Below, piece by piece: positions 6,003 to 59,192 of a stretch of DNA of 64,000 bases. Position 1 is the first letter of the stretch. Each line of letters starts with the position of its first letter. This stretch comes from Defluviimonas salinarum. Its GTDB lineage: Bacteria; Pseudomonadota; Alphaproteobacteria; Rhodobacterales; Rhodobacteraceae. The notes under the pieces were generated by a model. The model saw nothing but the letters and a program-made list of their open reading frames with translations, searched no databases and was not told the origin of the DNA. The DNA lies in NCBI RefSeq assembly GCF_026013545.1, contig NZ_JAPDOG010000008.1, positions 62,001 to 126,000 on the forward strand, written 5' to 3'. The position numbers and the translations under genes were made by a program.

Positions 6003-6515
6003 ATGCGCAAGGTCGTGCCACTCCTCCTCGCGCTTTTCGGGCTCGCCGCAGGCGGCGGGGCGGGGTTCTGGCTGCGCCCGGCACCCATGGAGAGCGTATC
6101 GATCGATCCCTGCGGCGAGGGCGGCGCAGAGCCGGCCGCTCTCGGCGAGGCGCATGCCGAACCGGAGGACGCTGCGGCCGATCCCGAACATCCCCCCGAA
6201 TACGTTAAACTCGCCAACCAGTTCGTTGTCCCCGTGGTCGAGCACGGCGATGTGGCGGCCCTGGTTATCCTCTCGATCAGCCTGGAGGTTACGGCGGGCA
6301 GCACCGAGCAGGTCTTCGCCCGCGAACCGAAGATCCGCGACGCGTTCCTGCGCGTGCTCTTCGATCATGCGAATGTCGGTGGGTTTGAGGGCGCCTTTAC
6401 CGAATCGAACAAGATGGAAGTTTTGCGTGGCGCTCTCCTCGAAGTCGCGCGCAAGTCGATGGGTCCGGCGATCACCGGAGTGCTCATCGTCGACATTGTC
6501 CGGCAGGACAGCTGA
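6003..6515 (+). CDS. FliL-family basal-body protein (second FliL paralogue)
   Basis: The 170-aa product has an N-terminal membrane anchor (about residues 4-24), a Glu/Ala/Pro-rich linker (about 35-62), and a C-terminal periplasmic domain of FliL type (VKLANQFVVPV...LVILSISLEV...IRDAFLRVLFDHAN). FliL proteins associate with the stator and MS-ring. A more canonical FliL is encoded at 16105-16584, so the cluster has two. This copy ends the flgB operon, 8 nt after flgH. The family call rests on topology and the strand pattern; its separate role is unknown. Confidence 0.75.
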   Translation: MRKVVPLLLALFGLAAGGGAGFWLRPAPMESVSIDPCGEGGAEPAALGEAHAEPEDAAADPEHPPEYVKLANQFVVPVVEHGDVAALVILSISLEVTAGSTEQVFAREPKIRDAFLRVLFDHANVGGFEGAFTESNKMEVLRGALLEVARKSMGPAITGVLIVDIVRQDS

Positions 6516-8784: not shown

Positions 8785-10865
8785 GCCGGCACCAGCCCGA
8801 CGATCGATGGCTTGGCGTCGAAACCGATTTCGTCGAACGACAGGACGGGTGCGCTGATTCCCTTGGCGCCGAGCACGGTCTTCAGGAACCTTCGGCGCCG
8901 GGCCGAGGTGACTACCGCCGGAAATTGCCCCTTCTCGCCAGCCTTCGAGATCCTGTCCGCGATGTTCATCGCCAGCCGGTTGAACTTGTCGGGCGGAAGG
9001 GCGACGTCGCACTGGCCGCGGTCGCCATCGACTTGGTGGGCGGCGAATGTCTCCTCCCATTCCGGGGAGAGCTGCAGAAGCGGCACGGTCCCATCCTCTC
9101 GCCGGATCTCCGCGACAAGCTGGAAGCCGAGGCGGCGGCGGACATGCTCGCAGACCGCCTCGGGGCTGACGCCGCGCCCCTCCGCGATCGCCTCGAGGAT
9201 CAGCGGCAGATTGCGGATCGAGACCCGCTCGTCGAGCAGGAGCCTGAGTACTGCGAGCAGGAGGTCTACCGGCACCTTGTCGGGGATGAGTTCGTCGAGC
9301 AGCTTGCGGTTGGCTTCGCTCCGAACGGGATCAGAGAGGTTGGTGCATTCCTCGAGCAGCCGGCGCACCGACTTGAGCGACAGCAACCGCGCGAAGTTGC
9401 GTTTGATCATTTCGAGAAGGTGAGTGGCCAGAACCTCCGCCGGGCCGACCACGGTCGCACCGCTCAGCGCCACGTCCTCCTGCATGGCCTGCGATACCCA
9501 GCGCGCGGGGGCACCATAAACCGGCTCGCGGACGTCGCGCCCGGGCGGCACGCCCGTGTCGCCGCCCGCGAGCAAAGCCAGGACATGGTCGGGATATAAC
9601 ACATCGCGCGCCTGTTCGACGCCCTGAATGCGGATCCGGTAACTGCCACTGGCGAGGGTCGCATCGTCCGTCAGCCGGATTTCCGGAAGGATCAACCCGT
9701 ACACCGCTGCGACATGGTTGCGCATGTTGACGATGCGTGCGTCGAGCCCGGTTGCCGGATCGAGGACCATATTGACCAGGTTCGGCGCGAACTCGACATG
9801 GATCTCGTCGAGGTCGAGGATGTCGCCCAGCGACTTCTTGCGCGGCGCCGTGACCGGCGGCGAGTCAGCCCGGGCCTGGTCCAGCGCCGCGCGCGCGGCC
9901 TTCCGCCGCATCAGTTCCGCCGCCCCGCCGAGCACCGCCGCGCCGGCAAGGAAGGGAACGAACGGCAGGCCCGGCACGAGCGCGAAGAGCGCCATGAGGA
10001 ATGCGACGGTCGCGAGCGCCGGCGGATAGTTCCCGAGTTGCCGGAACAGTTCCAGATCCGCCGCCCCTTTGGCCCCGCCGCGCGACAGGAGAAGCGCCGA
10101 CGCGATCGAGATGATCACCGCCGGGATCTGGCTGACGAGCCCGTCCCCCACCGTCAGGATCGCATAGGTCTCGAGCGCCCGGCCGATCGGCATGCCATGG
10201 ATCGAGACCCCGATGATCAGACCCATCACAAGGTTGAGCAGCGTGATCAGGAGCCCGGCCACCGCGTCGCCCTTGACGAATTTCGATGCCCCGTCCAGCG
10301 AGCCGAAGAAGGTGGTTTCCGCCTGTTCTCGTTCGCGCCGCGCCTTTGCCTCGGCATGGTCGATCGCACCCGCATTCATGTCGCTGTCGATGGCGAGCTG
10401 CTTGCCCGGCATCCCGTCGAGGGCGAAACGCGCGCCGACCTCCGCCATGCGGCCGGCGCCCTTCGTGATGACGATGAAGTTGACGATTAGCAGGACACCG
10501 AAGACCACGAGACCGATCAGAACGGATCCCGACATGATGAACATCGCGAAGCCTTCGATCACGTCGCCCGCGGCGCCGGTGCCGGTGTGGCCCTCGCCGA
10601 TGATCAGCTTCGTCGACGAGACGTTGAGCGAAAGGCGCAGCATCAGTGACGCAAGAAGGATTGTCGGAAACGCCGAAAAGTCCAGCGGGCGCTCGATGAA
10701 GAGCGTCACCGTGAAGATCAGGATCGCGAGCGCAAAGGAGGTGGCGAGCCCGATGTCGAGCACCCAGGCCGGCATCGGCAGGATCATCATCACGATCACA
10801 GCCATGAGCGCGAGCGCAAGTAGGACGGTCGGACGGAACAAACTTGTAATCGTCAGACTCGTCAT
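8781..10865 (-). CDS. flhA: Flagellar export gate protein FlhA
   Basis: Large export-gate protein (FHIPEP family), 694 aa. The N-terminal half has about eight membrane segments and the conserved stretches RLSLNVSSTKLIIGEGHTG and IDSDMNAGAIDHAEAKARR; the C-terminal half (from about residue 340) is the cytoplasmic ring domain that receives chaperone-substrate complexes. Length and motifs are normal. It overlaps the lytic transglycosylase gene upstream by 4 nt and fliR downstream by 4 nt. Confidence 0.97.
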   Translation of the reverse strand: MTSLTITSLFRPTVLLALALMAVIVMMILPMPAWVLDIGLATSFALAILIFTVTLFIERPLDFSAFPTILLASLMLRLSLNVSSTKLIIGEGHTGTGAAGDVIEGFAMFIMSGSVLIGLVVFGVLLIVNFIVITKGAGRMAEVGARFALDGMPGKQLAIDSDMNAGAIDHAEAKARREREQAETTFFGSLDGASKFVKGDAVAGLLITLLNLVMGLIIGVSIHGMPIGRALETYAILTVGDGLVSQIPAVIISIASALLLSRGGAKGAADLELFRQLGNYPPALATVAFLMALFALVPGLPFVPFLAGAAVLGGAAELMRRKAARAALDQARADSPPVTAPRKKSLGDILDLDEIHVEFAPNLVNMVLDPATGLDARIVNMRNHVAAVYGLILPEIRLTDDATLASGSYRIRIQGVEQARDVLYPDHVLALLAGGDTGVPPGRDVREPVYGAPARWVSQAMQEDVALSGATVVGPAEVLATHLLEMIKRNFARLLSLKSVRRLLEECTNLSDPVRSEANRKLLDELIPDKVPVDLLLAVLRLLLDERVSIRNLPLILEAIAEGRGVSPEAVCEHVRRRLGFQLVAEIRREDGTVPLLQLSPEWEETFAAHQVDGDRGQCDVALPPDKFNRLAMNIADRISKAGEKGQFPAVVTSARRRRFLKTVLGAKGISAPVLSFDEIGFDAKPSIVGLVPA

Positions 10866-11680
10866 TGGTCGTCCTCCGTCAGGGGGGGCGGCGCGCCGAA
10901 CAGGCTTGCACCGCCGCCGTTGCCAAGCGGAACCAACGAGCCGAGCCCGGAGGTGCCCCCGGTTTGGAGCAGTGGATAGCGGTTGACCCGCGCGATCGCC
11001 CCGACCATCGCGTCGGGATCGGTGCCCTCACTGCTTGGAAAGTCGTCATTTGCCACCCCCACGATGTCCGGGATCGCCGGGATCTCGTTGGTGTCTTGGG
11101 CCAGCAGCGAATTGCGGAAGCGATCGAAACGCGCCTGATAGCGTCCGGCGTATTCTGGGGTGCGCGAGTGGTAAGCGCCGGCGGCGCGGCTCCAGGACCC
11201 CTGCTCGGCATGCAGCGATTTCAGGAACCGGGCGGCGTAAAGCGCGTTGGTCAGCGGATCGAACATGTCGTCGATCGACCGGAACGCGGCGCCATGCCAT
11301 TTGAAGTTGAGCTGGAAGCAGCCGACGTCGAAGCTGCGCGCGCCGCGATCGTACTCCTTGTAAACATATGTGCGTGCCTCACGTTCGGATTCGAACCATA
11401 GGCCTTTGCCCTCCATGTTTACCGTCCATGGCCATGGACGAATCGCACGGCCCCGTCGACGTCCGGTCTCGGTCAATGAAATCGCCCTTAACACCGAAAC
11501 TGGCACGCCGGTGCGCTGCGACGCTTCCGCAGCCACCATGTCGCACACCGCAGATTGATCGACGGGTACACTTGCCGAAACTGATGACGACCAGCCGTCG
11601 AGCAGGCAAGTCGTGACGATACAGACAAAGACTGCGGCAGGTCGAGGCCATGAGCGCGCGGACATTCGGACGTTTCCCAA
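10862..11680 (-). CDS. Flagellar lytic transglycosylase (SltF-like)
   Basis: A 272-aa exported protein: signal peptide to about residue 37, then an SLT-family domain with the catalytic-glutamate block (SVLRAISLTETGRR), the GCFQLN motif and the AAGAYHSRTPEYAGRY block, followed by a roughly 70-residue C-terminal tail. Such enzymes cut peptidoglycan so the rod can pass through the wall. Coupling to flhA (4-nt overlap) and lack of a general housekeeping context fit a dedicated flagellar muramidase such as SltF of Rhodobacter sphaeroides, which binds FlgJ; that equivalence is inferred. An alternative ATG at 11665 would give a more compact signal peptide. Confidence 0.85.
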   Translation of the reverse strand: MGNVRMSARSWPRPAAVFVCIVTTCLLDGWSSSVSASVPVDQSAVCDMVAAEASQRTGVPVSVLRAISLTETGRRRGRAIRPWPWTVNMEGKGLWFESEREARTYVYKEYDRGARSFDVGCFQLNFKWHGAAFRSIDDMFDPLTNALYAARFLKSLHAEQGSWSRAAGAYHSRTPEYAGRYQARFDRFRNSLLAQDTNEIPAIPDIVGVANDDFPSSEGTDPDAMVGAIARVNRYPLLQTGGTSGLGSLVPLGNGGGASLFGAPPPLTEDDQ

Positions 11681-11739: not shown

Positions 11740-14184
11740 TCATCGGCTGCCCGCATCCGAGGTCGCCGCGATCATGCTTTCGATTGCGGAGCGCGCGGCG
11801 CGACTCTGCTCGACAAGTGCCTTGCCGCGCGCGAGCGGTCCGGGCAATGCGAGTTCCTGGACGGAGTCTGACACCGGCTCGGCAGACAAGCCGGCTTCTC
11901 CGGCCGAACCGAATCCAGCCGCGTGCAGTGCGTTGAGGGCTGCTCTTAAAGGCTCAGGCGGGTTCGCGGCCGCGCCGGAAAAATCGCCGGCTCGCCAGAG
12001 TTCGCGTCCGGCCGCTTCAGCGTCGCCGGCCGAAACGTACGCGCGCGCGGCCGCAGCGTGATCGCCGGCCATTGCGAGCGCCTCTGCGCGAAGGGTTTCT
12101 GATGCCGTGTCCCGCAGTCCGGCGAGCTTGTCGATTGCTGCCGCCGCGTCGAACTCGACGGTAGCGGCGCGGGCAAGTAACCGCCGACCTTGCTCCGAAC
12201 GGGCGGCGTCGGCGGTTACAAGCTTGCGCACCTCTTCCGTGAAGCCAGACGCGGCTAGCCGTTCAGCGAGGGTGAGGCGAAGCGACGCATCCGGATCGGC
12301 GGCGTAGAGTTCGGACCGATTGGCGAAATACGCGGCGAGGAAATCCGGCTCGCTGTCGTGACCGGCAAGCATCGCAAAGAGTTTGAGCGCGGTATCGCGC
12401 TGAAAGTGATTGGGCGGATCCGAAATCCATCTACGATAGGCGTCGAAGGAACCGTCGAAGTCATTTGCCGATCCACGCGCAAGTATATGGAGATGCTGCA
12501 GCACCTCCCCGGACTCGGCGTCCTGCAATTCGAAAGCCAATGCTTCGGCGCTTTCGATCAACCCGGTTGGCACCGCGAGGCCGCGCGCCAGTCGCGACTT
12601 GATCGCCAGAATGAGCGCGTCGGTTGACAGCGAACCGTTGCTGAGGGCGAGGTCTTCGAGTTTTTCCAATTGTGCGCCAGCGTCGCCTAGCGCCAGCCCG
12701 AGCTGGGCATCGATGATCCAGAGGCTCTCGGTGGTGTTCTGCGGGGATCGCGCGACTGCGTCGCGGACGGCTCGTGCCGCCTGCTCCGATCCGACCGACA
12801 GGAACCGATCCGACAATCCGGGGCCGAGGAGGCGCCTGAGGTGGACCGGAAGGGCGGAGAAAGCCCGAAGCACGGCGGCTTCGTCGATATCGGTTCCCGG
12901 CAGCAATTGCGGTAAGGCGAGCACCGCCCACAATGCCGCGCTTGTATCGCAGCTTGTCAGTGCCGGCAGGGCCGAACCGGCTTCGGCCACGCCTCCGTCG
13001 AGGACCGCCCCGATATCGCGCAGGGTCGAACCGTCGGACGTTTCGACGGCAAAGGCGGACAGGACTGCGCCGGCCTCGGCCCCGAAGCCAAGGTGAAGAT
13101 ACAGCCGCGCAAGGGACAGCACCGCCTCGGTCGAGGGGTGATCGAACTCTCCGACCAGGGGTCGTCGCCTTTCGGCAATCTGTGCCGCAGCCGGGCGATC
13201 GTCGCCCCAGCCGGCCAGATCGAAATTCGCGTCCGGCAGGCAGGCTGCGCCCGTGGCCGAGACCGGCGGGTGCGCCGCGGTCGAAGGCATGTCACGGTCG
13301 AAGCTGGTTTCCACATGGAGGGCAGGCTCCGGCGTCTCGTGTGCATCTACCTTCGGGCGCCGATCTGCGGCGCTAGCGGTATCGTCAGACGCTGCGTGTG
13401 CGGACGCACCCCGGGGCTCGGTTGGTGCGACCTCGACCAGTCCTTGCGCGGCCGCGCGGCTCAGTTGCAGAAGAAGCCGCTCTTGAGCCTCCGCCACGCT
13501 CGGATCGGTGTACATATGCAGTTTCGCGTCGCCGGAACCGCCGACATCTGTCCGGCCGGTATCCGGCATCTGCCGGTGTTTCCCGTGCACCTGGTCCGGC
13601 ACGCCACGGCTTGCGAGGCCGGAGAGATTGTCGCCGCGCCAGAGGGGAGCGAGGTCTATGGTCTTCTCCACATCTTGTGCCCGATCTCTGGTAGCAGGAT
13701 AAGACCGCGTTCGAATTGGTTCAGCCGCCTTCTTGTCCTGCCGGGGCGGCACGGTCGGAGTCAGCTGAGACTCGAAAGGCGAACCCGCAGCGGGCGGGCC
13801 GTCAGCGATGTCGACGATGATGTTGCCGTTTCCGTCGGCGGTGGCGGTTGCGTGGCAGGCGCAGCCGATCCCGAACCGCAAAACTCCCGGGGTCGCGTCA
13901 AGTGCAAGGGTCGCGAGGCGCGTGCGCGTGATTCTCCTGAACACATCCGTTGCGTCGAATGTCACGTCGAGTCCGCTTACGCGCAGAATATAGCCGCTCC
14001 CATCCCGACCGAGTTCCCATCCCGACGGCGCACCAACATCGACCACGATCCGGGTGAAACCGGTGTGCTCGCCGGATCGCACACGAATCATCTCGGCGAA
14101 GGACGGGGAGACGCCCGCGCCAGTCAGGATCGCGATGAGCGTTATTGTAGTCCTGATGACCATGACCGAAGCGCCCATCCTCAT
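11740..14184 (-). CDS. Large periplasmic motility-cluster protein, MotF candidate
   Basis: An 814-aa protein coupled to motA by a 4-nt overlap. It starts with a hydrophobic segment ending SFA (about residue 30) that could be a cleavable signal or an anchor. Next is an AMIN-like beta domain (about residues 32-130, IRVRSGEHTGFTRIVVDVG), a low-complexity Ala/Asp/Thr/Pro region (about 130-330), then a long Ala/Leu-rich helical region to the C-terminus that looks like a TPR-type solenoid. I recognise no catalytic motif. Rhodobacter sphaeroides MotF, a membrane protein needed for flagellar rotation, is the best candidate counterpart by position and architecture, but I cannot align it here. In-frame ATGs at 14178 and 14163 are alternative starts. 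Confidence 0.75.
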   Translation of the reverse strand: MRMGASVMVIRTTITLIAILTGAGVSPSFAEMIRVRSGEHTGFTRIVVDVGAPSGWELGRDGSGYILRVSGLDVTFDATDVFRRITRTRLATLALDATPGVLRFGIGCACHATATADGNGNIIVDIADGPPAAGSPFESQLTPTVPPRQDKKAAEPIRTRSYPATRDRAQDVEKTIDLAPLWRGDNLSGLASRGVPDQVHGKHRQMPDTGRTDVGGSGDAKLHMYTDPSVAEAQERLLLQLSRAAAQGLVEVAPTEPRGASAHAASDDTASAADRRPKVDAHETPEPALHVETSFDRDMPSTAAHPPVSATGAACLPDANFDLAGWGDDRPAAAQIAERRRPLVGEFDHPSTEAVLSLARLYLHLGFGAEAGAVLSAFAVETSDGSTLRDIGAVLDGGVAEAGSALPALTSCDTSAALWAVLALPQLLPGTDIDEAAVLRAFSALPVHLRRLLGPGLSDRFLSVGSEQAARAVRDAVARSPQNTTESLWIIDAQLGLALGDAGAQLEKLEDLALSNGSLSTDALILAIKSRLARGLAVPTGLIESAEALAFELQDAESGEVLQHLHILARGSANDFDGSFDAYRRWISDPPNHFQRDTALKLFAMLAGHDSEPDFLAAYFANRSELYAADPDASLRLTLAERLAASGFTEEVRKLVTADAARSEQGRRLLARAATVEFDAAAAIDKLAGLRDTASETLRAEALAMAGDHAAAARAYVSAGDAEAAGRELWRAGDFSGAAANPPEPLRAALNALHAAGFGSAGEAGLSAEPVSDSVQELALPGPLARGKALVEQSRAARSAIESMIAATSDAGSR

Positions 14185-15050
14185 GCGGCGTCCGACTTGA
14201 CGGCCTTCAGGGCTTCTTCGAGCGCCGAATAGCTGGGGCGGATGTGATGCGGCGTGTTCTGCCTTCCAACCTCAATGCAGATGTTGGCCGCGTGGTTGTG
14301 AAGATTCGCCACCAGGACCTCTCGTATCAGCTTGTAGAAATGGCTGTCCTCATCGACGACTGCCTTCACCTTCGCGGCGAATGGCCCGACCAGCCCGTAA
14401 GCGAGAAACACGCCAAGAAAGGTTCCGACCAGCGCACCGCCGATCATCTTGCCGAGAATCTCCGGCGGCTGGTCGATCGAGCCCATGGTCTTGATCACGC
14501 CGAGCACCGCCGCGACGATGCCGAGCGCAGGCAGACCGTCGGCGATCGATTGCAGCGCATGGGTCGAATGCAGCGCATGCCGCAGGTTGGCCTCGAGCTG
14601 CTTCTCCAACACCTCTTCCACCTGATGCGGGTCGTCGTAGTTCATCGAGGCCGAGCGCATCGTATCGCAGATCAGATCCACCGCTTCGTGATCCTGCTGA
14701 ATCTTTGGGTATTTCCCGAATATCGCCGAGGTGCCCGGCGCCTCGATATGCTCTTCGACGGCGACCGGGTTTTGTCGTGAGAGCCGGATCAGCTCGAACA
14801 GCAGACAGAGCAGGTCGCGGTAGTCCTCCGGCTTCCAGTGGGCGCCCTTGAACACCTTCTTCACGTCCTTCACCGTGTGCTTGATCGCGGCACCATCATT
14901 GGCGAGAACAAACGCTCCCACGGCAGCACCACCGATCATGATCATCTCGAACGGCAGCGACTTCAGGATGATGCCGAGTTTCCCGCCGGCGGCGATATAG
15001 CCGCCGAAGACCATGACGAAGATGATGACGATACCGACGATACCGATCAT
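14181..15050 (-). CDS. motA: Flagellar motor stator protein MotA
   Basis: Proton-channel stator subunit, 289 aa, with four membrane segments (about residues 1-22, 33-50, 170-190, 200-222), a large cytoplasmic loop between segments 2 and 3, and a charged cytoplasmic tail. The blocks IADGLPALGIVAAVLGVIK and GGALVGTFLGVFLAYGLVGP are the canonical MotA pore helices. Its partner MotB is about 11 kb away at 25166, so the stator genes are split between transcription units. Confidence 0.95.
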   Translation of the reverse strand: MIGIVGIVIIFVMVFGGYIAAGGKLGIILKSLPFEMIMIGGAAVGAFVLANDGAAIKHTVKDVKKVFKGAHWKPEDYRDLLCLLFELIRLSRQNPVAVEEHIEAPGTSAIFGKYPKIQQDHEAVDLICDTMRSASMNYDDPHQVEEVLEKQLEANLRHALHSTHALQSIADGLPALGIVAAVLGVIKTMGSIDQPPEILGKMIGGALVGTFLGVFLAYGLVGPFAAKVKAVVDEDSHFYKLIREVLVANLHNHAANICIEVGRQNTPHHIRPSYSALEEALKAVKSDAA

Positions 15051-15135: not shown

Positions 15136-15732
15136 TCACTCCGTCGGCGCACTCGCATTGCGCCCGGCCAGGATGACGCTGATCGAATAGGCGCTCTTTG
15201 TGTCGAGCCCGGCCATCACAGCCGCGGCAGACTCTGGACGCATCCGGGCCAGGAAACCGGCCGCGAACTCCGGATCCATCTCGGCAAAAAGCGCCGCCGC
15301 TTCCTTGGGCTTCATCTTTTCGTAGACAGTGACCAGTCGCTGAACGTCCTGAGCGGCCGCCTCGTCCGCGAGCGCAAGCGTCTTTGCCAGCTCGTCCTCC
15401 GCCACCGTCAGCGCGTCGAGCTTCTCGTCGATCTCTGACTTGGCTAGCTCAAGGGCCTGTGCGCGGTCGTTGGCTTGCGCCTCGCGTGCCGCAAGTCGTG
15501 CCTCACGGGCGCGGAGCGCCTCAAGCATCGCCATCGCGCCGCCACCAGGTTCGCAGCTCACCGCGTCGGCTTGCGCCTCAGGCTCACTCTGCGATTCTCC
15601 CCCCGCGAGGGCCTGGCTCGCGCCTGCGCCGATCCGGATCAGGCCGGACATGCCCAGCAGAACCGCGATCAGGAACAGGGCGCCGCGGCCGCGGCGGCGG
15701 CGCCGTATCGTGGCCGCCTTGCGCACGCTCAT
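15136..15732 (-). CDS. motE: MotE-family motility protein (MgtE-N-like domain)
   Basis: A 198-aa protein with an N-terminal basic stretch and membrane or export segment (about residues 16-44), a coiled coil (about 65-125), and a C-terminal helical domain with the pattern YEKMKPKEAAALFAEMDPE, as in the MgtE-N/FliG-N-like domain of MotE. In rhizobia MotE is a periplasmic chaperone-like motility protein. Its ATG overlaps the stop of the 121-aa gene upstream. The name follows domain layout and neighbours (fliL, motA). Confidence 0.75.
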   Translation of the reverse strand: MSVRKAATIRRRRRGRGALFLIAVLLGMSGLIRIGAGASQALAGGESQSEPEAQADAVSCEPGGGAMAMLEALRAREARLAAREAQANDRAQALELAKSEIDEKLDALTVAEDELAKTLALADEAAAQDVQRLVTVYEKMKPKEAAALFAEMDPEFAAGFLARMRPESAAAVMAGLDTKSAYSISVILAGRNASAPTE

Positions 15733-16094
15733 TCGGCCGCCTCCGGACGCTCATAGCCATGGTTGCGCCGGCGCAGGACGCGCATTCGCGACCCGCTGCG
15801 CTCAGGCGGTTCGGGCAGGTCGTGGAGCGTCGCGAACAGCAGCTCGAGCTTTGCCGCTGCCTGCTCAGCCCGTTCGGTCATCTCGCGCAGTGATCTGGCC
15901 GAGTCGGTCGCGGTACCACGCGCCGTCTCAAGCGCGCGGGTCATGTCGTCGACCTGCGCCGACAGGACCGCGATCGCACCCCCCATTCCGCCTTCGAGCT
16001 GGTTGAACGCCTTCAGTCGCCGCGAAAGGACGAGGCAGTAGATGCCGGCACCGATCGCGCCCGCGCTCATCAGGATATCGGCAATGAGTGCCAT
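15729..16094 (-). CDS. Conserved membrane-anchored protein of unknown function in the flagellar unit
   Basis: A 121-aa product with one N-terminal membrane helix (about residues 3-24), then a helical, coiled-coil-prone region (about 40-95) rich in Ala, Glu and Arg, and a basic C-terminal tail. It lies between fliL and motE with a 4-nt overlap to motE and 10 nt from fliL, so it is expressed with the stator genes. I believe small proteins of this layout recur at this place in alphaproteobacterial flagellar clusters (a DUF family), but no function is evident. Confidence 0.7.
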   Translation of the reverse strand: MALIADILMSAGAIGAGIYCLVLSRRLKAFNQLEGGMGGAIAVLSAQVDDMTRALETARGTATDSARSLREMTERAEQAAAKLELLFATLHDLPEPPERSGSRMRVLRRRNHGYERPEAAE

Positions 16095-16104
16095 CGCGCC
16101 GCCC

Positions 16105-16584
16105 TCAGTTGATCACGAACTCGGTCACGAGCAGATCTCGCACCCGCCCGTCGCCCGCCACCATCTGCACCCGTCGCAGCATTTGTGCCCGAAGCCGCAC
16201 CAGCGCGGTCGGATCCTCCAGCTCGCTCACTTCGACTGCGCGCAGATAGCCATTCAGGACGTCGAGAACACGCGGCAGCAGAAGAACAACGTCCGACTCG
16301 TGGACCTTCGCGACTTCGATCTGGGCGGTGAAGTGCAAATACCGCCCCGACTCGCTGCCGAGCGATACGACCATCGGGGCGATCGGTACGAAGGCAATGT
16401 CCGGCAACGCCTCGACGTGCGGAGACCCCTTCTTCACTGCAGCACCATGCCCGAGAATCAATCCCGAATAGACCGCGAAGAAACCACCGCCGCCAAGCGC
16501 GAGCATCAGCACGAAGCCGAACAGAATCGGCAGTTTCGAGACCTTCTTCGGGGCGTCGTCGGGTGTCGTGTCAGATCCGGACAT
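16105..16584 (-). CDS. fliL: Flagellar basal body-associated protein FliL
   Basis: Single-pass inner-membrane protein that surrounds or stabilises the stator at the basal body. The ATG at 16584 gives 159 aa: a short cytoplasmic N-terminus, a Gly/Leu-rich membrane helix (about residues 18-42), a linker, and the FliL periplasmic domain (PMVVSLGSESGRYLHFTAQI). It heads the long minus-strand unit running through motE, motA, flhA and flhB, and faces fliF across a 123-bp gap that contains a CtrA box. Confidence 0.92.
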   Translation of the reverse strand: MSGSDTTPDDAPKKVSKLPILFGFVLMLALGGGGFFAVYSGLILGHGAAVKKGSPHVEALPDIAFVPIAPMVVSLGSESGRYLHFTAQIEVAKVHESDVVLLLPRVLDVLNGYLRAVEVSELEDPTALVRLRAQMLRRVQMVAGDGRVRDLLVTEFVIN

Positions 16585-16631
16585 GGCGATCTTCGCGGTT
16601 TGATTGTCGGACCGGTATAGACCGGGGGTGA

Positions 16632-16646
16632 CTAACCGATTGTTAA
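16632..16646. promoter_or_regulatory. CtrA-type box between fliL and fliF
   Basis: CTAA, seven bases, TTAA: one mismatch from TTAA-N7-TTAA. Read on the minus strand it is TTAAC-N6-TTAG, close to the extended consensus TTAAC-N6-TTAAC. It is 61 bp before fliF and 47 bp before fliL, placed to serve both divergent units. Confidence 0.65.
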
Positions 16647-16707
16647 GGGCAATCGGCGAAGCATCGGGGAGACGACGGGCAGAAGCCCGCCTATTCGGAG
16701 ATGCGCC

Positions 16708-18315
16708 GTGCAGCAGCTGACAGCCGTCTGGCAGGCTCTTGACCCTCGCCGCCGCGCGATCGTCGCGGTGACGACGCTTGCGATGTTCGCTGCGGTGCTC
16801 GCCTTGGCCAATCTCGTTGCGAAACCTTCGATGGCGCTTCTTTATGCGGGCCTCGACGGCAATCGTTCTGGCGAGGTTCTGGCCGCGCTCGACCAACGCG
16901 GTGCCGTCTACGAGGTGCGCGGCACAGCCATCTATGTCGAGGGCGTGCGGCGCGACGAGCTCAGGATGACGCTCGCCGCCGAAGGGCTGCCTGCGAACAG
17001 CGGCTCGGGCTACGAGCTTCTCGATTCGCTCACCGGGTTCGGGACCACCTCGCAGATGTTCGACGCCGCCTATCTGCGCGCCAAGGAGGGCGAGCTCGCG
17101 CGCACGATATCGGCGCTGCCGCAGATTCGCTCGGCACGCGTTCATATTGCCGAGACCCGCGCCCAGGGGCTGCGTGCCCAGACGCGGCCCTCGGCCTCCG
17201 TCGCGGTCACGACCGCAACGGGCGGGATCACGCCGCCCCATGCCAAGGCCTTGAAATTCCTCGTCTCATCCGCAGTTGCTGGCCTTGCGCCCGAAGACGT
17301 GGCCATCATCGATGGCGCGGGCGGCCTTGTCATCGCGGGCGACGAACAGGCCGGACCCGCGGCCGGCGACCGCGCCGAGGAGCTTCGTCGCAATGTCGAG
17401 CGGTTGCTGGAAGCACGCGTCGGCTATGGCAACGCCGTCGTCGAGGTCTCGGTCGAGACGGTGACCGAGCGCGAGGCGATCACCGAGCGCCGGTTCGATC
17501 CCGACGGCCGGGTCGCGATCTCCACCGACACCGAGGAGCGGACGACCTCGTCGAACGACCGGGGCTCGAGCGCCGTGACCGTCGCGTCGAATCTGCCGTC
17601 CGGCGATGCCAACGCACCGGCCGGAACGTCTCAGAGCCAGAACAGCGAGACCCGTGAACGCACTAACTTCGAGGTTTCGGAGACCACGCGCGAGGTTCTG
17701 CGCAACCCCGGAGCCGTCCGCCGCCTGACGGTTGCGGTTCTCGTCGACGGCGTCACCGTGGTCGACGACACAGGTGCGACGCGGGTCGAGCCGCGCTCGG
17801 ACGACGAGCTCGCCGCCCTGCGTGATCTCGTCTCGGCCGCCGTTGGGTTCGATGCCGATCGGGGTGATGTGATCACCCTGAAATCGATGAGCTTCGAGCC
17901 GTTGGCACCGGCCGGTGAGCCAGCCGGAGCTTCCTATCTCGCCGGTCTCGGTCTTGATGCGATGAGCATGGTTCAGCTCCTCGTCCTGGCAATCGTCACA
18001 CTGGTTCTGGGCCTGTTCGTGATCCGCCCGATCCTGACTTCGCGCGGTGGGCGCGTGCCTGACCTCGCGCCGCCGCGGGCGGACGATCGCCTGGCGCTCG
18101 ATTCCGGGGCTCTGACCGGCGAAATCGCCGATGACGACGAGCCGCTGCAAAACCTCGCAGTGGTCTCCGGGCGGTCTGGCGACAGTGCCGGCCGCATTCC
18201 GGGGAGCGAGGTCGATCCGGTATCCCGGCTCCGCCAGATGATTGCCGAACGTCAGGACGAGACGGTCGAAATCCTGCGCGGCTGGATGGAAGATCCCGAA
18301 GAGGAGCGCGCCTGA
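16708..18315 (+). CDS. fliF: Flagellar MS-ring protein FliF
   Basis: Inner-membrane MS-ring subunit, 535 aa, near the usual size. Membrane helices lie at about residues 15-38 and 415-437 with the two ring-building (YscJ/FliF-type) domains after the first. The C-terminal cytoplasmic tail (RLRQMIAERQDETVEILRGW) matches the FliG-binding end of FliF, although fliG is not in this window. The start is a GTG, chosen because GGAG lies 8 nt upstream; a nearby ATG at 16701 is out of frame. Its stop shares one base with the fliH start. Confidence 0.94.
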   Translation: MQQLTAVWQALDPRRRAIVAVTTLAMFAAVLALANLVAKPSMALLYAGLDGNRSGEVLAALDQRGAVYEVRGTAIYVEGVRRDELRMTLAAEGLPANSGSGYELLDSLTGFGTTSQMFDAAYLRAKEGELARTISALPQIRSARVHIAETRAQGLRAQTRPSASVAVTTATGGITPPHAKALKFLVSSAVAGLAPEDVAIIDGAGGLVIAGDEQAGPAAGDRAEELRRNVERLLEARVGYGNAVVEVSVETVTEREAITERRFDPDGRVAISTDTEERTTSSNDRGSSAVTVASNLPSGDANAPAGTSQSQNSETRERTNFEVSETTREVLRNPGAVRRLTVAVLVDGVTVVDDTGATRVEPRSDDELAALRDLVSAAVGFDADRGDVITLKSMSFEPLAPAGEPAGASYLAGLGLDAMSMVQLLVLAIVTLVLGLFVIRPILTSRGGRVPDLAPPRADDRLALDSGALTGEIADDDEPLQNLAVVSGRSGDSAGRIPGSEVDPVSRLRQMIAERQDETVEILRGWMEDPEEERA

Positions 18316-25138: not shown

Positions 25139-25153
25139 TTAACATCGCCCTAA
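25139..25153. promoter_or_regulatory. CtrA-type box upstream of flgE
   Basis: TTAA, seven bases, CTAA, followed by C: this matches the extended consensus TTAAC-N6-TTAAC with one mismatch. It lies in the 85-bp gap between the motB stop and the flgE start. Confidence 0.7.
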
Positions 25154-25165
25154 CGCGACCGACCC

Positions 25166-26038
25166 TCAGCGTTTCGAACGCAGGAGCACGATCTCCAGCC
25201 GGTTGTTGCGCGCCGCCATGGGATTCTTCACGGCAGGCTGGCGATCGGAATGGCCGGTGACCCGCTCGATCCGTTCGGGGTCGAGGCCCGCGTTCTCCAG
25301 CATCTTCCGAGCCCGCATCGCCCGGGCGGTCGACAGATCCCAGGACGGGTTGTCGCGCAGGACGGCGGGCAGGGCGCGAATGTGGCCGTTCACGGCCACG
25401 TTGTTGGCGGCAAGTCCGAAGACCCGCGCCACCATCGCGATCAGATCGGTCAGGATCTGTTCCGGCGTGTCGCTGTCGGTGACGAACAGCGGCGCATCGT
25501 CCTGATCGAAGATCTCGACGATCAGACCCTCGTCGGTGACGCGCGTGACGATGTGGCGCGCGGCCTTGGCGCTGACCATGCTCTCGCCGCCGATTCCCAT
25601 CAGCGCCTCTTCGATCCTGCGCGCCTCCTCGGCGAAGGCGGCGGCATCGGCGGCGCGTTCGCTGGCCTCGGTGCCGGTCTGGCCGAGGGCCTGCCGTTCC
25701 TTCGATGGCTTGAGGCTCGACGCGCCGGTGCCGTTCTGGGCGATCTGGTCCTCCGAGAAGACGCTGTCGCCGCCGAACGAGCCGTCGCCGCCGCCCGAGA
25801 TGCGGCTGAGCGGGATCGTCGGGCTGAAATAGTCCGCGATGCCCTTGCGCTGTTTCTCGGTCGTCGCGTTCAGCAGCCACATCAGCATGAAGAAGGCCAT
25901 CATCGCGGTCACGAAGTCGGCATAGGCGACCTTCCACGCCCCGCCGTGATGCCCGCCACCGGCGACAACCTTCTTACGCTTGATGATGACCGGCGCGGCA
26001 TTGGTTTGCCCAGCCATCCCATCCACCTTGTCTTTCAC
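25166..26038 (-). CDS. motB: Flagellar motor stator protein MotB
   Basis: Stator subunit of 290 aa: a basic cytoplasmic N-terminus, one membrane helix with the proton-carrying Asp (YADFVTAMMAFFMLMWLL, Asp41), a plug/linker region, and a C-terminal OmpA-like peptidoglycan-binding domain (NVAVNGHIRALP...RVTGHSDRQP...NNRLEIVLL). It pairs with MotA (14.2 kb). An ATG at 26017 is an alternative start. It probably has its own promoter with a CtrA box 27 bp upstream. Confidence 0.94.
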   Translation of the reverse strand: MKDKVDGMAGQTNAAPVIIKRKKVVAGGGHHGGAWKVAYADFVTAMMAFFMLMWLLNATTEKQRKGIADYFSPTIPLSRISGGGDGSFGGDSVFSEDQIAQNGTGASSLKPSKERQALGQTGTEASERAADAAAFAEEARRIEEALMGIGGESMVSAKAARHIVTRVTDEGLIVEIFDQDDAPLFVTDSDTPEQILTDLIAMVARVFGLAANNVAVNGHIRALPAVLRDNPSWDLSTARAMRARKMLENAGLDPERIERVTGHSDRQPAVKNPMAARNNRLEIVLLRSKR

Positions 26039-26064: not shown

Positions 26065-26079
26065 TTAATGCGCGGCTAA
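26065..26079. promoter_or_regulatory. CtrA-type box upstream of motB
   Basis: TTAA, seven bases, CTAA, followed by C: one mismatch from TTAA-N7-TTAAC. It lies 27 bp before the motB start, in the 98-bp gap between motB and the IalB-family gene. Confidence 0.65.
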
Positions 26080-30036: not shown

Positions 30037-30121
30037 CCGGCTTGTGCCAGTCTCCGCACCTCTCTATCTCCGGCGGTGGGACACCCCTCCCCAACGAGGG
30101 GCGCTTATCTGGAAGGATACC
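30037..30121 (+). ncRNA. Candidate serC leader RNA (cis-regulatory)
   Basis: The stretch before serC can form several hairpins: GGC-TTGT-GCC (30039-30048), then two that compete for the same bases: GGTG/CACC (30075-30078 with 30082-30085) and CCCCT/AGGGG (30084-30088 with 30097-30101). The second lies about 20 nt before the serC start. A conserved serC leader motif is known from Rhodobacterales serC-serA operons, and position and lineage fit it. I matched it from memory, not by a covariance search. Confidence 0.5.
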
Positions 30122-31279
<1,158 letters not shown>

Positions 31280-39772: not shown

Positions 39773-42700
39773 CTACTCGCTCACCACGACCCGGCCGGTC
39801 GCGGTCCGGGCGCGGTAGTCGGGGCGGTACATGTCCTCGACGCTTGCCGCCGGGTGGTGGAAGCTGCCGGGCGAGATCGCACGGACGAGATAGGCGAGCC
39901 GGAACGGTTCGCCGGTGGTCCAGTCCACCGCCGCGAGGAAGCGGTCCTGGCGGAACTCGGTCGTCCGTGTCTCGGCCACACTGTCGAGCCAGCCGAGGGT
40001 GGCAATGTCGCCGGCGCGGATAAGGCTCGGGTTGTCGATCTCGAACCCGGCGGGGAGCGGGTCGTCGACCATCAGCCGCGCCTCGCCCCTGCCGTGCGGC
40101 GTGACCTCGATCATCGCGACGAGCCTCGCGCCCTGCCTGACCGTGGCGATGTCGGCGGGCTCGCCCTCGAGCGTGTAGTAGCTACGTTCGATCGCGTAGC
40201 CCTTGCCGCCCGCGGGCTCCGGTTCTGCGGGTACGCCGAAGGTCGAAAGCGTCACAGTCGCGTCGCGGCCCGATCCGTTGGCGATGACCTGCGGCATGGC
40301 GGCGGCGGCTTCGAGCACCCGGACGAGCGGTCCCTCGACCGCCGCGCCGTTGACGGTGAAGCCGTCGGCGCCGGGCCGGTCGATCAGTGCGTGGGTGGCG
40401 AGCAGCGCCCAGGTCGCCTCCTGCGTCGAGAGCCGCTTTCCGGTCAGCGCGCGGGCCACGTCGTTGCCGAGCGTCTCGGGGCTCACGGCGGCGGAACCCG
40501 CCTCGGCGGCGAGCGCCAGAAGCGCTGTGGCGTCGCGCAGGTCGGTGCCGTAATCGGCGCGCCAGAGCGGGGCCTCCTCCGTTCCTGTCCGGGTGTCTAT
40601 GAGCCGCGCGGCCGCGGTGAACATCGCGTCGGCGCGCCGCTGATCGCCGTAGGAGGCGAGCGCCGCGCCGAGCTGGGCAGCGGCGATCGGCGTGTCGAAG
40701 GCGTCTGTCTTCACGTCGGCGTAGTAGCGCAAGTCGCCCACCGCCGCCGCGCCCTCGCGTGCGAGCACCATCAGCGCATAGGCATAGGCGCCGCCGCCCG
40801 CGTCGAAATCGGGCGCGTAGTTGATCTGGTTCCTGAGGTTGTCGAGCGCGCTGCGGAACGCGGTGTCGGGCACCGGGTAGCCCTGCGCCTTTGCCCGACT
40901 GAGGAAGTCGGTCACATAGGCGTCGAGCCAGAGGTCGCCGGTATCGGCGTGCCAGAGGCCGAAGGCGCCGTTCGACGACTGGTTGAGCAGGATCTCGGCG
41001 ATGCTCTCCTCCACCCGCGTGCGGATGTCGCCGGACTGGCCGGTGCCCATCGCCCGCGCCACCTCCTCGAAATAGAGGAGCGGCAGCGCCTTCGAGGTGA
41101 GCTGCTCGGTGCAGCCGTAGGGGTAGGCGTCGAGCGCGGCGAGAAGGCCCGGCGCATCGAAGCGGGCGATTGGCCCGACCGCGAGGGTGGCGCGGCCGGA
41201 GCCGGGGACGAGCCCGGCGAAGACGTTGGCGTCGAGCGTGAAGGCGTCGCCGGCGGCAAGGTCGAAGCGGCTCTGGCGGGCCACTTCGGGCTCGTTCGAC
41301 TGGACGGGCAGGTCGAGATCCTTCACCAGTTGGCGCCCGTCCGGCGTCGTCAGCGCGACCCGGATGGTACCGGTGTCCTCGGTGTCTCCGGCGGTGACGG
41401 GCACCGAGACAACCGCCTTGCCGCCTTCGGTGAGATCGAGCCCGGAGGGTGCCGCGCCGAGGGTGAGCCCCTCGCCGTTCACGTCGAGTCCGATCCGCCC
41501 GGCCGGGCCGGTCGCGTGGACGATTTCCAAAAGCAGCCGGCTCTCGTCGCCGGGCGCAAGGAAGCGCGGGAGCGAGGCGGTCACCACGACCGGGTCGCGC
41601 ACCAGTACCTCTGCTTCGGCCTGACCGATGGCGGATTTCGACCAGGCGACGGCCATGAGCCGCACCGTGCCGTTGAAGGACGGCAATGCGAACTCGGTCC
41701 GCGCGTAGCCGTCGGCACCCACGGTCAGCGGGCCGGAGAAATAGGCGACGAGTTCCTCGGTCGGCGGCGGCGCCTGCATCTTCAGCCCCGAGGCGCCGTC
41801 GCCGCCGGAGCGCACCGCGCCCTTCACGCCCGCCTGGCCGTCGATCAGCCGTCCGTACAGGTCGCGGATCCCGACGCCGAGCTTCCGCTGGCCGAAATAG
41901 TGCCCCTCGGGGTCAGGCGAGGAGAAGCCGGTGAGGTTCAGGATGCCGACATCGACGGCGGCGATGGTGGCGAGGACGGGTTCGCCCGCCGTCGCGCCCT
42001 CGACCTTCAGCGCGACCGGAAGCGGGCCACGCGGCGCGGCCTCGGGCGCGACTTCGAAGGCGGCGGCGAGCCTGCGCGGGCCGGGATCGACCGCGGCGTA
42101 GGAAAGCCCGAGCGCCCGCGCCGGAGCGCGGCCGGCATCGGCATCGAGCGGCCGGATCACCGAGGCCGCGACATAGGCGCCCGCGCCCCAGTCATCGGTC
42201 ACCGGCAGTTCCACCAGCGTCTCGCCGGCGGTGACCGGCACCGCCTTCATATCGATCAGCCGGTTCGACATCACCGTGACCAGCGCCACGCCGTCGGCGC
42301 GCGGCTCCAGCCGCACCACCGCGGTGTCGCCGGGCCGATAGGCGGGCTTGTCGAGCGTCACCGGCACGGTGTCCGGCGTCTCGGTGGCGTCGGCGGGGGC
42401 GTACCAGCCGGCGTGGAACTCGACCGAGGCGGCGCTGTAGGTGCCGTCGGCGGCCTCGACGACCAGCTCGTAATTACCCCAGTCGACCGGGGCGGCGATG
42501 GCCTCGGCGCCGGTCGCGGTCAGCGCCACGTCACCCTCGGCGACCCGGTGGCGGGTGGTCGTCACCTCCCAGTTCCACTGGCCGTAGAGCGAGTACCACT
42601 GGTAGTCGGTTTCGATCCGGTTGAGCGTCCAATGGGCGCTGCGCGCCGCCGGGGCCTCGTCAGGGCCGACCGCGATCAGCTCGAACCGGGCCTCGTCCCC

Positions 42701-45220
42701 TTGGGCCACGGTGCCGCCCTCGAAGAGCGGCTTGATCCCGATGACCGGGGCGTCTGGCAGGATCCGCCGGGCGACCTCGCGCTCGACAGGGCGGCCGGAG
42801 CCCTCCTTCAGACGCACCGCGAAGCGCGCCTCCAGGGGCCGGTTCCCCGCTTCGCCGAGATCGGGGAGCGCCGCGGCTAGCGTCGCGCGTCCCTCGGCAT
42901 CGGTCGGCCCGACCTCGGGCAAGGCGTCGCGGTAGGGCGAGAACGGTTCGTCATGGCGGCCGAAGCCGTACCCGGGAAAGGCGTCGAGCCGGTCGAGCGC
43001 GGCGATCCTCAGATCGCCCTCGACCGCGAGCCCCGCACCCGGCGCGCCGAAGAGATAGCGCGCGGCGATGCCGAGCGCGGGCGTGTCGGCAAGGCGCAGC
43101 GCGCCTTCGGGCAGCGTCAGGTCGAAGTCGATGCGTTCTGGCAGGAAGTCCTCGACGAGGAGGCTGTCGGCGGCAAGCACCTTGCCGTCCTCGACGAAGC
43201 TCTCGATCCGCCAGGTGCCGCGTGGCGCGCTCGCCGCCAGGGGGAGCGTCGCGACATGGCCGCCCGCGCCGACCGCAGCGGCGAGGATCCGGCTGTATTC
43301 GACGCCGTCGGGTCGGAGAAGCCGCACCGTCATCGGCAGCCCGTCGAGCGCCTCCATCCTCGAGTCGCGGGCAAGGATCGTCGTGTGGACCGTCTCGCCC
43401 GCACGGTAAGCGCCGCGGTCGGTTGCAAGGAACACGTCGATCGGCGGCGCGGCCTCGCGCCCGGCGACGCCGCGGTCGGAGAGGTCGAACTCCGGCTCGG
43501 TCAGCGGCAGGAACGCGAAGTCGCCGTCCTTCTCCACGGTGACGAGCGCGGGGACGGCGCCGCCGGTCCCGGCGGTCAGCCCGGCGGCGAACCGGGCAAG
43601 GCCCTCGGCGTCGGTCCGGGCCGTCGCGATCACCGCGTTGGCGCGGGACAAGAGCGTCGCGGTGGCACCTTCGGCCGCCGTCGCGCCCGAGAGCGCGCGC
43701 ACGACGACGTGGAGCCCGTCCGTGCCCTCGAAGGTGGTGAGCCCGAGATCGGAGATGACGAACCACTGCGTCGCCGGCGGATGGTCGTAGGGATCGAGCC
43801 CCGGAACCCCGGCCTGCAGTGAGTAGATGCCCGGCCCGAGGTCTTCCATCACCGCGTCGAGCGGCAGCCGCGTGGTCACGTCGCGGTTGACCTCCATCCC
43901 GACCTCGCCCGTACCAGCCCACACCTCCTCCGCGACCTGTCCCTTGAGGTTCTCCGACGACCAGTAGTCGAGCGGGCGGCCGAAATAGTCGCTCTGGATC
44001 GCCCGGATCAGGTTGCGGTCGGAGATCCGGAGGAGCGTGAGGTCGAGCCGGTCGGTATTGACGGTCTCGACCGGGATCCCGGCCCGATCGGTCCGGGGCA
44101 GCACATAGGCGCGGCCAGGGAATCGCACGGCAGGCGCCCGGTCGCGGACGTAGAGGTTGAGCGTCACGTCCTTCGCCAGCTCCTCGCCATCGGCGGCGGG
44201 CAACCCTTCGCGGAAGGTCACCGCGTAGCGGCGGCCGTGCTCGACCCCGCTCACGCAGATCTGCCGGCCCGAGGCGTCGACGGCGAGGCCCGCCGCGTCG
44301 AGCTTGACGAAGGGGGCGTAGTCGGTCCCGGCGCGGATCAGATCGGCGGTAAAGGTGGCGCAGATCCGCGGCATGGCGGCGTCGCTGTCGACCTGGGTCT
44401 CGGCGATGCGGAAGCCGTATTTGCCGATCGCGTCTTCAAGCGCCGCGGCGGTTTCGTCGCGCGGCTGCAGGCGCTGGGCAAGGCGCAAGGCGGGGATCAT
44501 GTCGGGGCCGCGTTCGACGGTCTCGAAGGCGCGGGCGAGGGTCGCAAGCGCGGTGGCGCGGAGCGCGGGGGCGTCGGCCCGCAGGTAGGCGTTGATCGCG
44601 GCGGCGGCGGCGCGATCGGCGTTGTCCCGGCGCTTGCTTCGGTTGGCCGGAATTTCGAGAAGCGCTGCGGCATAATCGGCCCAGAGCCCGGCCGAGTCGG
44701 AGATGTTGAGCGCCGCGCCGGTTGCTTCGGCGACGCCGGGCCAGTCCTCTGCGTCGCGCGCCGCTCGCTCCGCCGCGATCAATTCTGTCTCGGTCGCAAT
44801 TCCGGTTGGATGTGCTACAGAGAGGCCGTTTGCCTGCTCAAGCGCCGCATCGAAGTCCTCCTCCCTTAGAAATGAGAGATCCGTGGCCAAATTCCGCGCT
44901 TGTTCGGTGGCACCCTCTGCGGCGGCGATGATGCGGCCTGACACGGCGCCGGAATAGGGTTCTGCCGTGCCGGCTTCGGTTTTCAGGAAGCAGGATCCGG
45001 CACGGCGGTTGAAGGTGAAGGCCCGGCAGGCGCCGTCGGTGAGACATGCCGACGCGCAGGCGTTGTATTCGACGTCGAACAGGGCACGAAGGTCCGCGCC
45101 GGGGAAGTCGATACCTTCGACCAGGGCCGCGCGTCTGTCGGGAATGTAGTCGCGGTCCTGGGCGGTGACGGCGGAAACTGCGAGCAAGGCCACGAGAGCG
45201 GCGGGCAACACCCTGAGCAT
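39773..45220 (-). CDS. Bacterial alpha-2-macroglobulin with N-terminal PAN/apple domain
   Basis: A periplasmic protease trap of 1815 aa. After a signal peptide ending VTA (residue 20) there is a PAN/apple-like domain (about 37-95; Cys55, Cys59, Cys65, Cys77). The long beta-rich A2M body follows, then the thioester motif CTEQ at about residues 1370-1373 inside an alpha/alpha toroid, and a C-terminal receptor-like domain. The thioester indicates a covalent trap. Unlike E. coli YfhM there is no lipobox Cys after the signal peptide, so it is probably soluble. The ATG at 45220 follows AGGGGATTTCG. Its partner pbpC follows. Confidence 0.94.
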   Translation of the reverse strand: MLRVLPAALVALLAVSAVTAQDRDYIPDRRAALVEGIDFPGADLRALFDVEYNACASACLTDGACRAFTFNRRAGSCFLKTEAGTAEPYSGAVSGRIIAAAEGATEQARNLATDLSFLREEDFDAALEQANGLSVAHPTGIATETELIAAERAARDAEDWPGVAEATGAALNISDSAGLWADYAAALLEIPANRSKRRDNADRAAAAAINAYLRADAPALRATALATLARAFETVERGPDMIPALRLAQRLQPRDETAAALEDAIGKYGFRIAETQVDSDAAMPRICATFTADLIRAGTDYAPFVKLDAAGLAVDASGRQICVSGVEHGRRYAVTFREGLPAADGEELAKDVTLNLYVRDRAPAVRFPGRAYVLPRTDRAGIPVETVNTDRLDLTLLRISDRNLIRAIQSDYFGRPLDYWSSENLKGQVAEEVWAGTGEVGMEVNRDVTTRLPLDAVMEDLGPGIYSLQAGVPGLDPYDHPPATQWFVISDLGLTTFEGTDGLHVVVRALSGATAAEGATATLLSRANAVIATARTDAEGLARFAAGLTAGTGGAVPALVTVEKDGDFAFLPLTEPEFDLSDRGVAGREAAPPIDVFLATDRGAYRAGETVHTTILARDSRMEALDGLPMTVRLLRPDGVEYSRILAAAVGAGGHVATLPLAASAPRGTWRIESFVEDGKVLAADSLLVEDFLPERIDFDLTLPEGALRLADTPALGIAARYLFGAPGAGLAVEGDLRIAALDRLDAFPGYGFGRHDEPFSPYRDALPEVGPTDAEGRATLAAALPDLGEAGNRPLEARFAVRLKEGSGRPVEREVARRILPDAPVIGIKPLFEGGTVAQGDEARFELIAVGPDEAPAARSAHWTLNRIETDYQWYSLYGQWNWEVTTTRHRVAEGDVALTATGAEAIAAPVDWGNYELVVEAADGTYSAASVEFHAGWYAPADATETPDTVPVTLDKPAYRPGDTAVVRLEPRADGVALVTVMSNRLIDMKAVPVTAGETLVELPVTDDWGAGAYVAASVIRPLDADAGRAPARALGLSYAAVDPGPRRLAAAFEVAPEAAPRGPLPVALKVEGATAGEPVLATIAAVDVGILNLTGFSSPDPEGHYFGQRKLGVGIRDLYGRLIDGQAGVKGAVRSGGDGASGLKMQAPPPTEELVAYFSGPLTVGADGYARTEFALPSFNGTVRLMAVAWSKSAIGQAEAEVLVRDPVVVTASLPRFLAPGDESRLLLEIVHATGPAGRIGLDVNGEGLTLGAAPSGLDLTEGGKAVVSVPVTAGDTEDTGTIRVALTTPDGRQLVKDLDLPVQSNEPEVARQSRFDLAAGDAFTLDANVFAGLVPGSGRATLAVGPIARFDAPGLLAALDAYPYGCTEQLTSKALPLLYFEEVARAMGTGQSGDIRTRVEESIAEILLNQSSNGAFGLWHADTGDLWLDAYVTDFLSRAKAQGYPVPDTAFRSALDNLRNQINYAPDFDAGGGAYAYALMVLAREGAAAVGDLRYYADVKTDAFDTPIAAAQLGAALASYGDQRRADAMFTAAARLIDTRTGTEEAPLWRADYGTDLRDATALLALAAEAGSAAVSPETLGNDVARALTGKRLSTQEATWALLATHALIDRPGADGFTVNGAAVEGPLVRVLEAAAAMPQVIANGSGRDATVTLSTFGVPAEPEPAGGKGYAIERSYYTLEGEPADIATVRQGARLVAMIEVTPHGRGEARLMVDDPLPAGFEIDNPSLIRAGDIATLGWLDSVAETRTTEFRQDRFLAAVDWTTGEPFRLAYLVRAISPGSFHHPAASVEDMYRPDYRARTATGRVVVSE

Positions 45221-45330
45221 CGAAATCCCCTGTCCTTGGTAATGCGAGGATGCTCGCATGGCGCCGGCCGGCATGGCAAGACCGGCCCCCGATCGCGGAA
45301 CGCTTAAACCTTCCTTCATGCCGGAGCGTC

Positions 45331-59135: not shown

Positions 59136-59192
59136 ACCGAAGAATCCCCTGGCCGCGTCGGGGTTATGGCGCGGCATCCTCCCTGTTGGACT

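Follow-up and report, generated by a model that had tools for sequence, protein, structure and literature searches.

A MotK orthologue encoded in overlap with motA in Defluviimonas salinarum, and its putative large relatives across the Alphaproteobacteria

Introduction

MotK of Cereibacter sphaeroides (RSWS8N_12065, Q3IY86) was described in 2024 as a protein of 652 aa with a reported 24-residue signal peptide, an AMIN-like N-terminus, and a TPR-like remainder, encoded in the gene order fliL-pflI-motE-motA-motK (PMC10954123). According to that account, MotK is a periplasmic protein and a binding partner of MotE and MotB2. It is essential for Fla2 rotation, motK mutants making filaments without swimming. 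The protein is found at the flagellated pole, and this localization needs MotA2 and MotB2. C. sphaeroides MotE is given as a 185-aa protein with a 29-residue signal peptide and a single cysteine, Cys20, after that peptide.

MotE is a member of the E-ring family (PMC13023049). In C. jejuni, PflA, in which an AMIN domain is combined with TPR repeats, acts as a spoke joined to the E-ring and has the E-ring protein FlgY as a partner; stators need PflA, and its deletion removes stator density (preprint PMC11870540). The likeness of PflA to MotK is structural and published. MotC of S. meliloti likewise resembles MotK in being a periplasmic TPR protein that acts with MotE but is reported to be without the AMIN domain of MotK (PMC13023049). 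A further protein needed for rotation and acting on the stator, MotF of Rhodobacter sphaeroides, belongs to the Fla1 flagellum and is described as having a mass of 24 kDa and a transmembrane segment that spans residues 54 to 74 (PMC7277832). Here, we analyze a locus of Defluviimonas salinarum encoding an 814-aa protein, which an earlier note on the sequence had tentatively presented as a MotF equivalent or a poorly described scaffold between stator and cell wall.

Results

The window that we analyzed is a stretch of 64,000 nucleotides from contig NZ_JAPDOG010000008.1 (positions 62,001 to 126,000). An 814-aa open reading frame, hereafter motK, fills window positions 11740 to 14184 exactly on the minus strand (start codon at 14184, stop codon ending at 11740), whereas the plus-strand reading of the same interval is interrupted by stops. 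Since relatives were detected in 20 of 41 near genomes and in 273 of 395 genomes of the family, the own genome being counted in both cases, this ORF is more than a product of chance, and the earlier note, which gave no strand, was right to propose it. The ATG of motK occupies positions 14184 to 14182 and the TGA stop codon of motA positions 14183 to 14181; the two genes therefore overlap by 4 bp (ATGA). That they overlap had already been indicated in that note.

The gene lies in a flagellar cluster of the Fla2 type in which the operon order fliL-pflI-motE-motA-motK is present. Upstream of motK, and all on the minus strand, are motA (14181 to 15050, 289 aa; TIGR03818, 362.4 bits for a cut-off of 303.8), motE of the E-ring family (15136 to 15732, 198 aa; MgtE_N domain, 27.4 bits for a cut-off of 25.9), pflI (15729 to 16094, 121 aa; DUF6468 match), and fliL (16105 to 16584, 159 aa, with the ATG at 16584 chosen as the start). 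A longer frame of 378 aa (16105 to 17241, minus strand) was considered as a FliL fusion and dropped as an over-extended FliL, because its additional part overlaps fliF, which is encoded on the opposite strand, and the ATG at 16584 yields a protein of 159 aa. Downstream, motK is followed by an SLT-domain lytic transglycosylase gene (10862 to 11665, minus strand; SLT E value of 4.7e-6, with the ATG at 11665 chosen as the start), flhA, fliR, and flhB. The "flagellar muramidase" announced for this position was loosely correct, the similarity being to an SLT transglycosylase domain. The ORF at 25166 to 26038 (minus strand), motB, belongs to the same cluster and is the only MotB_plug match of the genome at E values of ≤0.001.

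The divergent genes fliF and fliL have a CtrA-like site between them (16632 to 16646; TTAA-N7-TTAA with up to one mismatch). We take this motif to be that of CtrA; at the same stringency it matches six times in the window for 0.45 matches expected, and additional sites immediately precede the flgE-like ORF and the motB ORF (25139 to 25153 and 26065 to 26079). The window also encodes a bacterial alpha-2-macroglobulin of 1,848 aa with PAN domains (39773 to 45319, minus strand), the small RNA SorX (59146 to 59219, plus strand), and a serC leader (30074 to 30125, plus strand).

In order to compare the locus with that of C. sphaeroides, the genome of this species was located among the 395 family genomes by a search with oxidase subunit I (chain 1m56_A). 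Genome G082 showed 100% identity over 205 aa, the next best genome showing 92%. In G082, the ORF after motA starts at an in-frame ATG that overlaps the motA stop codon and encodes exactly 652 aa, matching the published MotK. MotE of that genome has 185 residues with a single cysteine at position 49, equivalent to the published Cys20, and MotA has 289 residues. BLASTP alignment of the window protein with C. sphaeroides MotK revealed 47% identity over 110 aa in the AMIN part (E value of 6e-24) and 32% identity over 428 aa in the helical part (E value of 2e-43). The profile of an alignment of 18 relatives including the window protein (alignment A1) matched C. sphaeroides MotK over 572 columns (hhalign, Prob 100, E value of 5.3e-67). 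The neighboring proteins of the two species were also related, with 50% identity for MotE, 66% over 92 aa for PflI, and 77% for MotA2; the window SLT protein displayed 45% identity with the product of the ORF that follows C. sphaeroides motK. Because of this homology, the agreement with the published length of 652 aa, and the presence of homologous neighbors in the same order, we identify the window protein by sequence comparison as the orthologue of C. sphaeroides MotK. The two proteins share the AMIN domain, most of the helical part, the operon order, the 4-bp overlap with motA, and four cysteines in the mature protein but differ in length (652 versus 814 aa), the window protein having a longer linker and a longer C-terminal part. 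The MotK gene has been known since 2024, and the window protein is a further orthologue. The description of the protein as a poorly described one accordingly held until that year, the family being now described as MotK (PMC10954123).

The N-terminus of the protein (residues 1 to 30; 14095 to 14184, minus strand, as for all segments below) reads as a signal peptide-like sequence, with a second in-frame ATG at residue 8. It is followed by a beta-rich domain (residues 31 to 130; 13795 to 14094) that we assign to the AMIN fold on the basis of profile comparisons and of a predicted model. The Pfam AMIN-like family PF24837 scored 18.2 bits in the window protein for a cut-off of 27, and we therefore use the label AMIN-fold domain rather than membership of PF24837; matches to this family at E values of ≤1 were obtained for 12 of the 18 sequences aligned in A1. 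Comparison of the MotK domain profile with 24 of 29 AMIN stretches (L098, L106, L108, L112, and L115 being left out) gave a score of 35.5 over 62 columns (hhalign, Prob 81%), in comparison to 18.2 for the best of 200 column shuffles and 10.4 for the reversed profile. An AlphaFold model of the domain alone, based on two sequences, was all beta (model m4179b60d2c9a; mean pLDDT of 78, pTM of 0.73). VIA-align placed PilQ (Z score of 11.1, 2.8 Å, 100 residues aligned) and AmiC (Z score of 10.9, 3.6 Å, 106 residues aligned) at the top and PilQ again twice at a Z score of 9.6, so that these AMIN-bearing proteins held ranks 1 to 4, the last two in a tie with a Synechocystis protein of no known relation (Z score of 9.4); heat shock folds had Z scores of 8.6 and lower. 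Foldseek used alone ranked small heat shock proteins above AMIN domains, with the AMIN-bearing PilQ and AmiC at ranks 5 to 7 and 41 of the best 50 matches, and found nothing at E values of ≤0.001 (best, 1.2e-3). PflA was absent from these best 50 matches, which counts for nothing against a likeness to PflA. The AMIN-like N-terminus proposed from the sequence is thus borne out by both the profile scores and the best matches of the model.

The remainder of the protein begins with a variable, gap-rich linker (residues 131 to 300; 13285 to 13794). The linker region (about residues 131 to 310) is poorly conserved, with a pLDDT of under 50, and includes a short conserved predicted helix at about residues 228 to 250. 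A helical, TPR-like region follows (residues 312 to 760; 11905 to 13251), supported by predicted helices, hhalign matches to the large proteins of the class described below, and weak TPR matches in relatives (TPR_19 in 6 of the 18 members of A1); the domain scan found no TPR match in the window protein itself. A C-terminal helix (residues 783 to 812; 11749 to 11838) is predicted by a low-confidence model and is partly conserved in A1. The full-length AlphaFold model, also based on two sequences, was helical through about residues 330 to 770 at a mean pLDDT of 44.7, values of 76 to 88 being reached only over residues 631 to 730. Because this model was poor, the fold searches were performed with the AMIN domain alone. 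Structure prediction, which the earlier note had advised, hence supports the AMIN fold but describes the full-length protein poorly; the C-terminal part is predicted to be helical, as proposed, and its helices and TPR-like character are predicted with low confidence. No NCBIfam model matched the 814-aa protein at E values of ≤0.1, and a phmmer search against PDB sequences returned only a chance match (E value of 0.42).

The linkage of motK to motA was examined in 67 loci. Both genes were present in 65 of them, head to tail and on the same strand in all 65, and the two other loci are contig ends. The junction was an overlap of the ATGA type in 61 of the 65 rows, the start codon lying one base before the end of the stop codon in the remaining 4. 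Locus L002 is wholly inside L028 and is therefore not independent evidence; removal of duplicates left 58 distinct loci, 54 of which have the 4-bp overlap. Co-occurrence was assessed in the first 20 genomes listed in each of two groups, three genomes of the own genus being skipped. MotA1 scored over its cut-off in all 20 MotK-positive genomes (of 273) and in 3 of the 20 MotK-negative genomes (of 122). One of these three, G056, has the operon fliL-pflI-motE-motA with no detectable motK; for the other two, the 11 kb around motA gave no match to any additional flagellar protein of the window. In G056, a 235-aa ORF (L168, 5126 to 5833) lies between motA and flhA, in the place of motK.

From residue 30 on, each of the 18 members of A1 has exactly four cysteines, in the same columns. 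In the window protein these are Cys108 and Cys110, forming a CxC motif (13855 to 13863), Cys315 (13240 to 13242), and Cys412 (12949 to 12951), all on the minus strand. The four residues are also kept in C. sphaeroides MotK, in which no further cysteine follows the signal peptide of 24 residues, and in a plasmid-encoded homologue of Paroceanicella profunda. The main text of PMC10954123 mentions cysteine twice, both times for MotE, and we saw no description of the invariant cysteines of MotK in the literature searched, itself a partial set. The Paroceanicella homologue is encoded in a plasmid flagellar cluster (L065, NZ_CP040822.1), where it is annotated as hypothetical and followed by a basal-body protein gene. 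A plasmid flagellar cluster of Erythrobacter aureus (L244, NZ_CP031358.1) contains, in the place corresponding to motK, a 548-aa relative of the large MotK-like proteins described below; it is shorter than these and is also annotated as hypothetical.

Searching 289 genomes of the class with the MotK profile led to matches in 80 genomes at E values of ≤0.01, including 4 of the own family. In 66 of the 76 matching genomes outside the family, at least one match fell in an open frame of 943 to 1,420 aa, often within the first 200 positions of the profile; the remaining matches outside the family were in shorter frames, some with the size of AMIN-bearing amidases. Neighborhoods were examined for 20 far loci with a large ORF (19 families), picked by hand from the 76 genomes with weight given to strong matches, the other 56 genomes being outside this count. 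Matches to both fliL and motE were found near the large ORF in 18 of the 20 loci (17 families), and the two exceptions, one of which is a 7-kb contig, show neither. The 20 large proteins (978 to 1,354 aa) resemble MotK in combining an AMIN-like N-terminus with a TPR-like part beside motE and fliL but differ from it in their length, in the presence, in some of them, of two N-terminal matches side by side, and in the absence of any cysteine from 12 of the 20. No motA match was detected in the sequence stretches around the 20 large genes; MotA1 scored over its cut-off elsewhere in the genome for 19 of the 20 loci.

Alignment of the 20 large proteins with the MotK profile gave a match in the helical part that extends over 425 columns (Prob 99.9, E value of 5e-34). 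The specificity of this match was evaluated with 29 control TPR proteins of related genomes (L214 being left out and four being truncated at the locus end). Compared singly with the helical part of MotK, 18 of the 20 large proteins scored above all controls (44 to 108 over 226 to 437 columns), with a thin margin for the four that lie at 44 to 50. Three controls of about 300 aa reached 37.6 to 39.7, the highest control score, over 59 to 61 columns, and the others did not exceed 28.7. The large proteins of L190 (32.7) and L192 (26.0) fell below the range of these three controls. A Caulobacter protein, CC_2058, has been tied to MotK by structure, BLAST similarity being denied (PMC10954123), and is also named in PMC11870540, where the link rests on structural similarity. 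We infer that the large proteins examined here are tied to CC_2058. Within the literature searched, which was partial, we saw no earlier report of the sequence-profile link that appears to connect MotK to large proteins across the class.

The gap between motE and the large gene exceeds 1 kb in 16 loci, and in 13 of these it encodes two consecutive MotB-like membrane proteins, as in L175 (6228 to 7588), in the same gap of L176, L177, L178, L180, L182, and L184, and further in L186, L187, L188, L190, L191, and L193. By reading the sequences for what we take to be the aspartate motif of the channel helix, the first protein of the pair lacks this aspartate and the second has it. The L175 pair was scanned, and the second protein matched MotB_plug (E value of 1.4e-8) while the first matched nothing.

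Discussion

Conserved coupling to motA, the operon context, and the AMIN fold are consistent with MotK being a component of the motor, and three other explanations deserve consideration. An identity with R. sphaeroides MotF was the first candidate and was dropped on the basis of size, topology, and a profile match confined to the MotK locus. Both proteins are linked to the stator and to rotation, but MotF, as described, is a small membrane-anchored protein (24 kDa, transmembrane segment from residue 54 to residue 74), whereas the window protein has 814 aa and a signal peptide-like start (PMC7277832). In addition, the MotK profile matched nothing outside the MotK locus in the C. sphaeroides genome at E values of ≤0.001, and MotF belongs to Fla1, whereas the window cluster is of the Fla2 type and contains the only MotB_plug match of the genome. 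The proposed equivalence with MotF, as homologue or functional counterpart, was therefore not retained, and we regard it as having hardly any chance of being correct. The window encodes a second FliL-family protein (6003 to 6515, plus strand), directly after flgH, which in a pairwise comparison was not meaningfully similar to the FliL encoded in the motA operon. MotF of S. meliloti is reportedly, going by the title of its paper, a FliL paralogue; the window counterpart of that protein, if there is any, would be this second FliL-family protein.

A role of MotK in guiding the neighboring SLT transglycosylase, as a wall-remodeling factor for the passage of the rod, would fit the presence of the SLT gene after motK in 31 of 45 rows (L117 to L136, whose flank ends inside motK, being set aside, and duplicates such as L002/L028 being included). 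The other 14 rows show no SLT match after motK, however, and in Paroceanicella the next gene encodes a basal-body protein, whereas motA was adjacent to motK in all loci where both genes were present. C. sphaeroides motK mutants also make filaments (PMC10954123), and we consider such a role to be very unlikely. That MotK mainly stabilizes MotE rather than being a structural part of the motor is somewhat less remote, the C. sphaeroides MotE being unstable in the absence of MotK, but still improbable: MotK localizes to the flagellated pole in dependence on MotA2 and MotB2 (PMC10954123), and a place in the motor agrees with the conservation of the AMIN fold and with the coupling to motA.

We are thus left with a rhodobacteral MotK orthologue that very probably has the published role of MotK, being essential for rotation and a partner of MotE and MotB. 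The protein would be secreted to the periplasm, where the AMIN-fold domain would hold peptidoglycan, and the partners of the TPR-like part would be MotB and MotE, the latter encoded two genes upstream. In its simplest form, this mechanism would have MotK serve the rhodobacteral motor as a spoke or clamp. Binding to the wall and the geometry of a spoke would be expected, and the function established in C. sphaeroides would carry over to D. salinarum. Among the features of PflA, the AMIN fold and the motE neighbor are present in the window, and the repeats are weakly indicated. The idea of a scaffold between stator and wall, offered before the orthology was recognized, was right in light of the published role of C. 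sphaeroides MotK (PMC10954123).

The comparison across the class may extend this assignment. MotK and the proteins of 978 to 1,354 aa may constitute one class-wide family, recognizable by sequence, of spokes that link the MotE ring to the stators. The Rhodobacteraceae would possess a short form coupled to motA and possibly braced by disulfides between its four cysteines, and many other families would couple a long form to two MotB-like proteins, of which one has the channel aspartate and the other lacks it. Taken with all its parts, we judge the arguments for and against this proposal to be evenly balanced.

To our knowledge, the enteric model motors are without MotK, a motor part that came to light only recently. 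Orthology provides a named function for a gene that is annotated as hypothetical, for example, in Paroceanicella. The class-wide profile link and the four cysteines offer testable leads on how alphaproteobacterial motors hold their stators.
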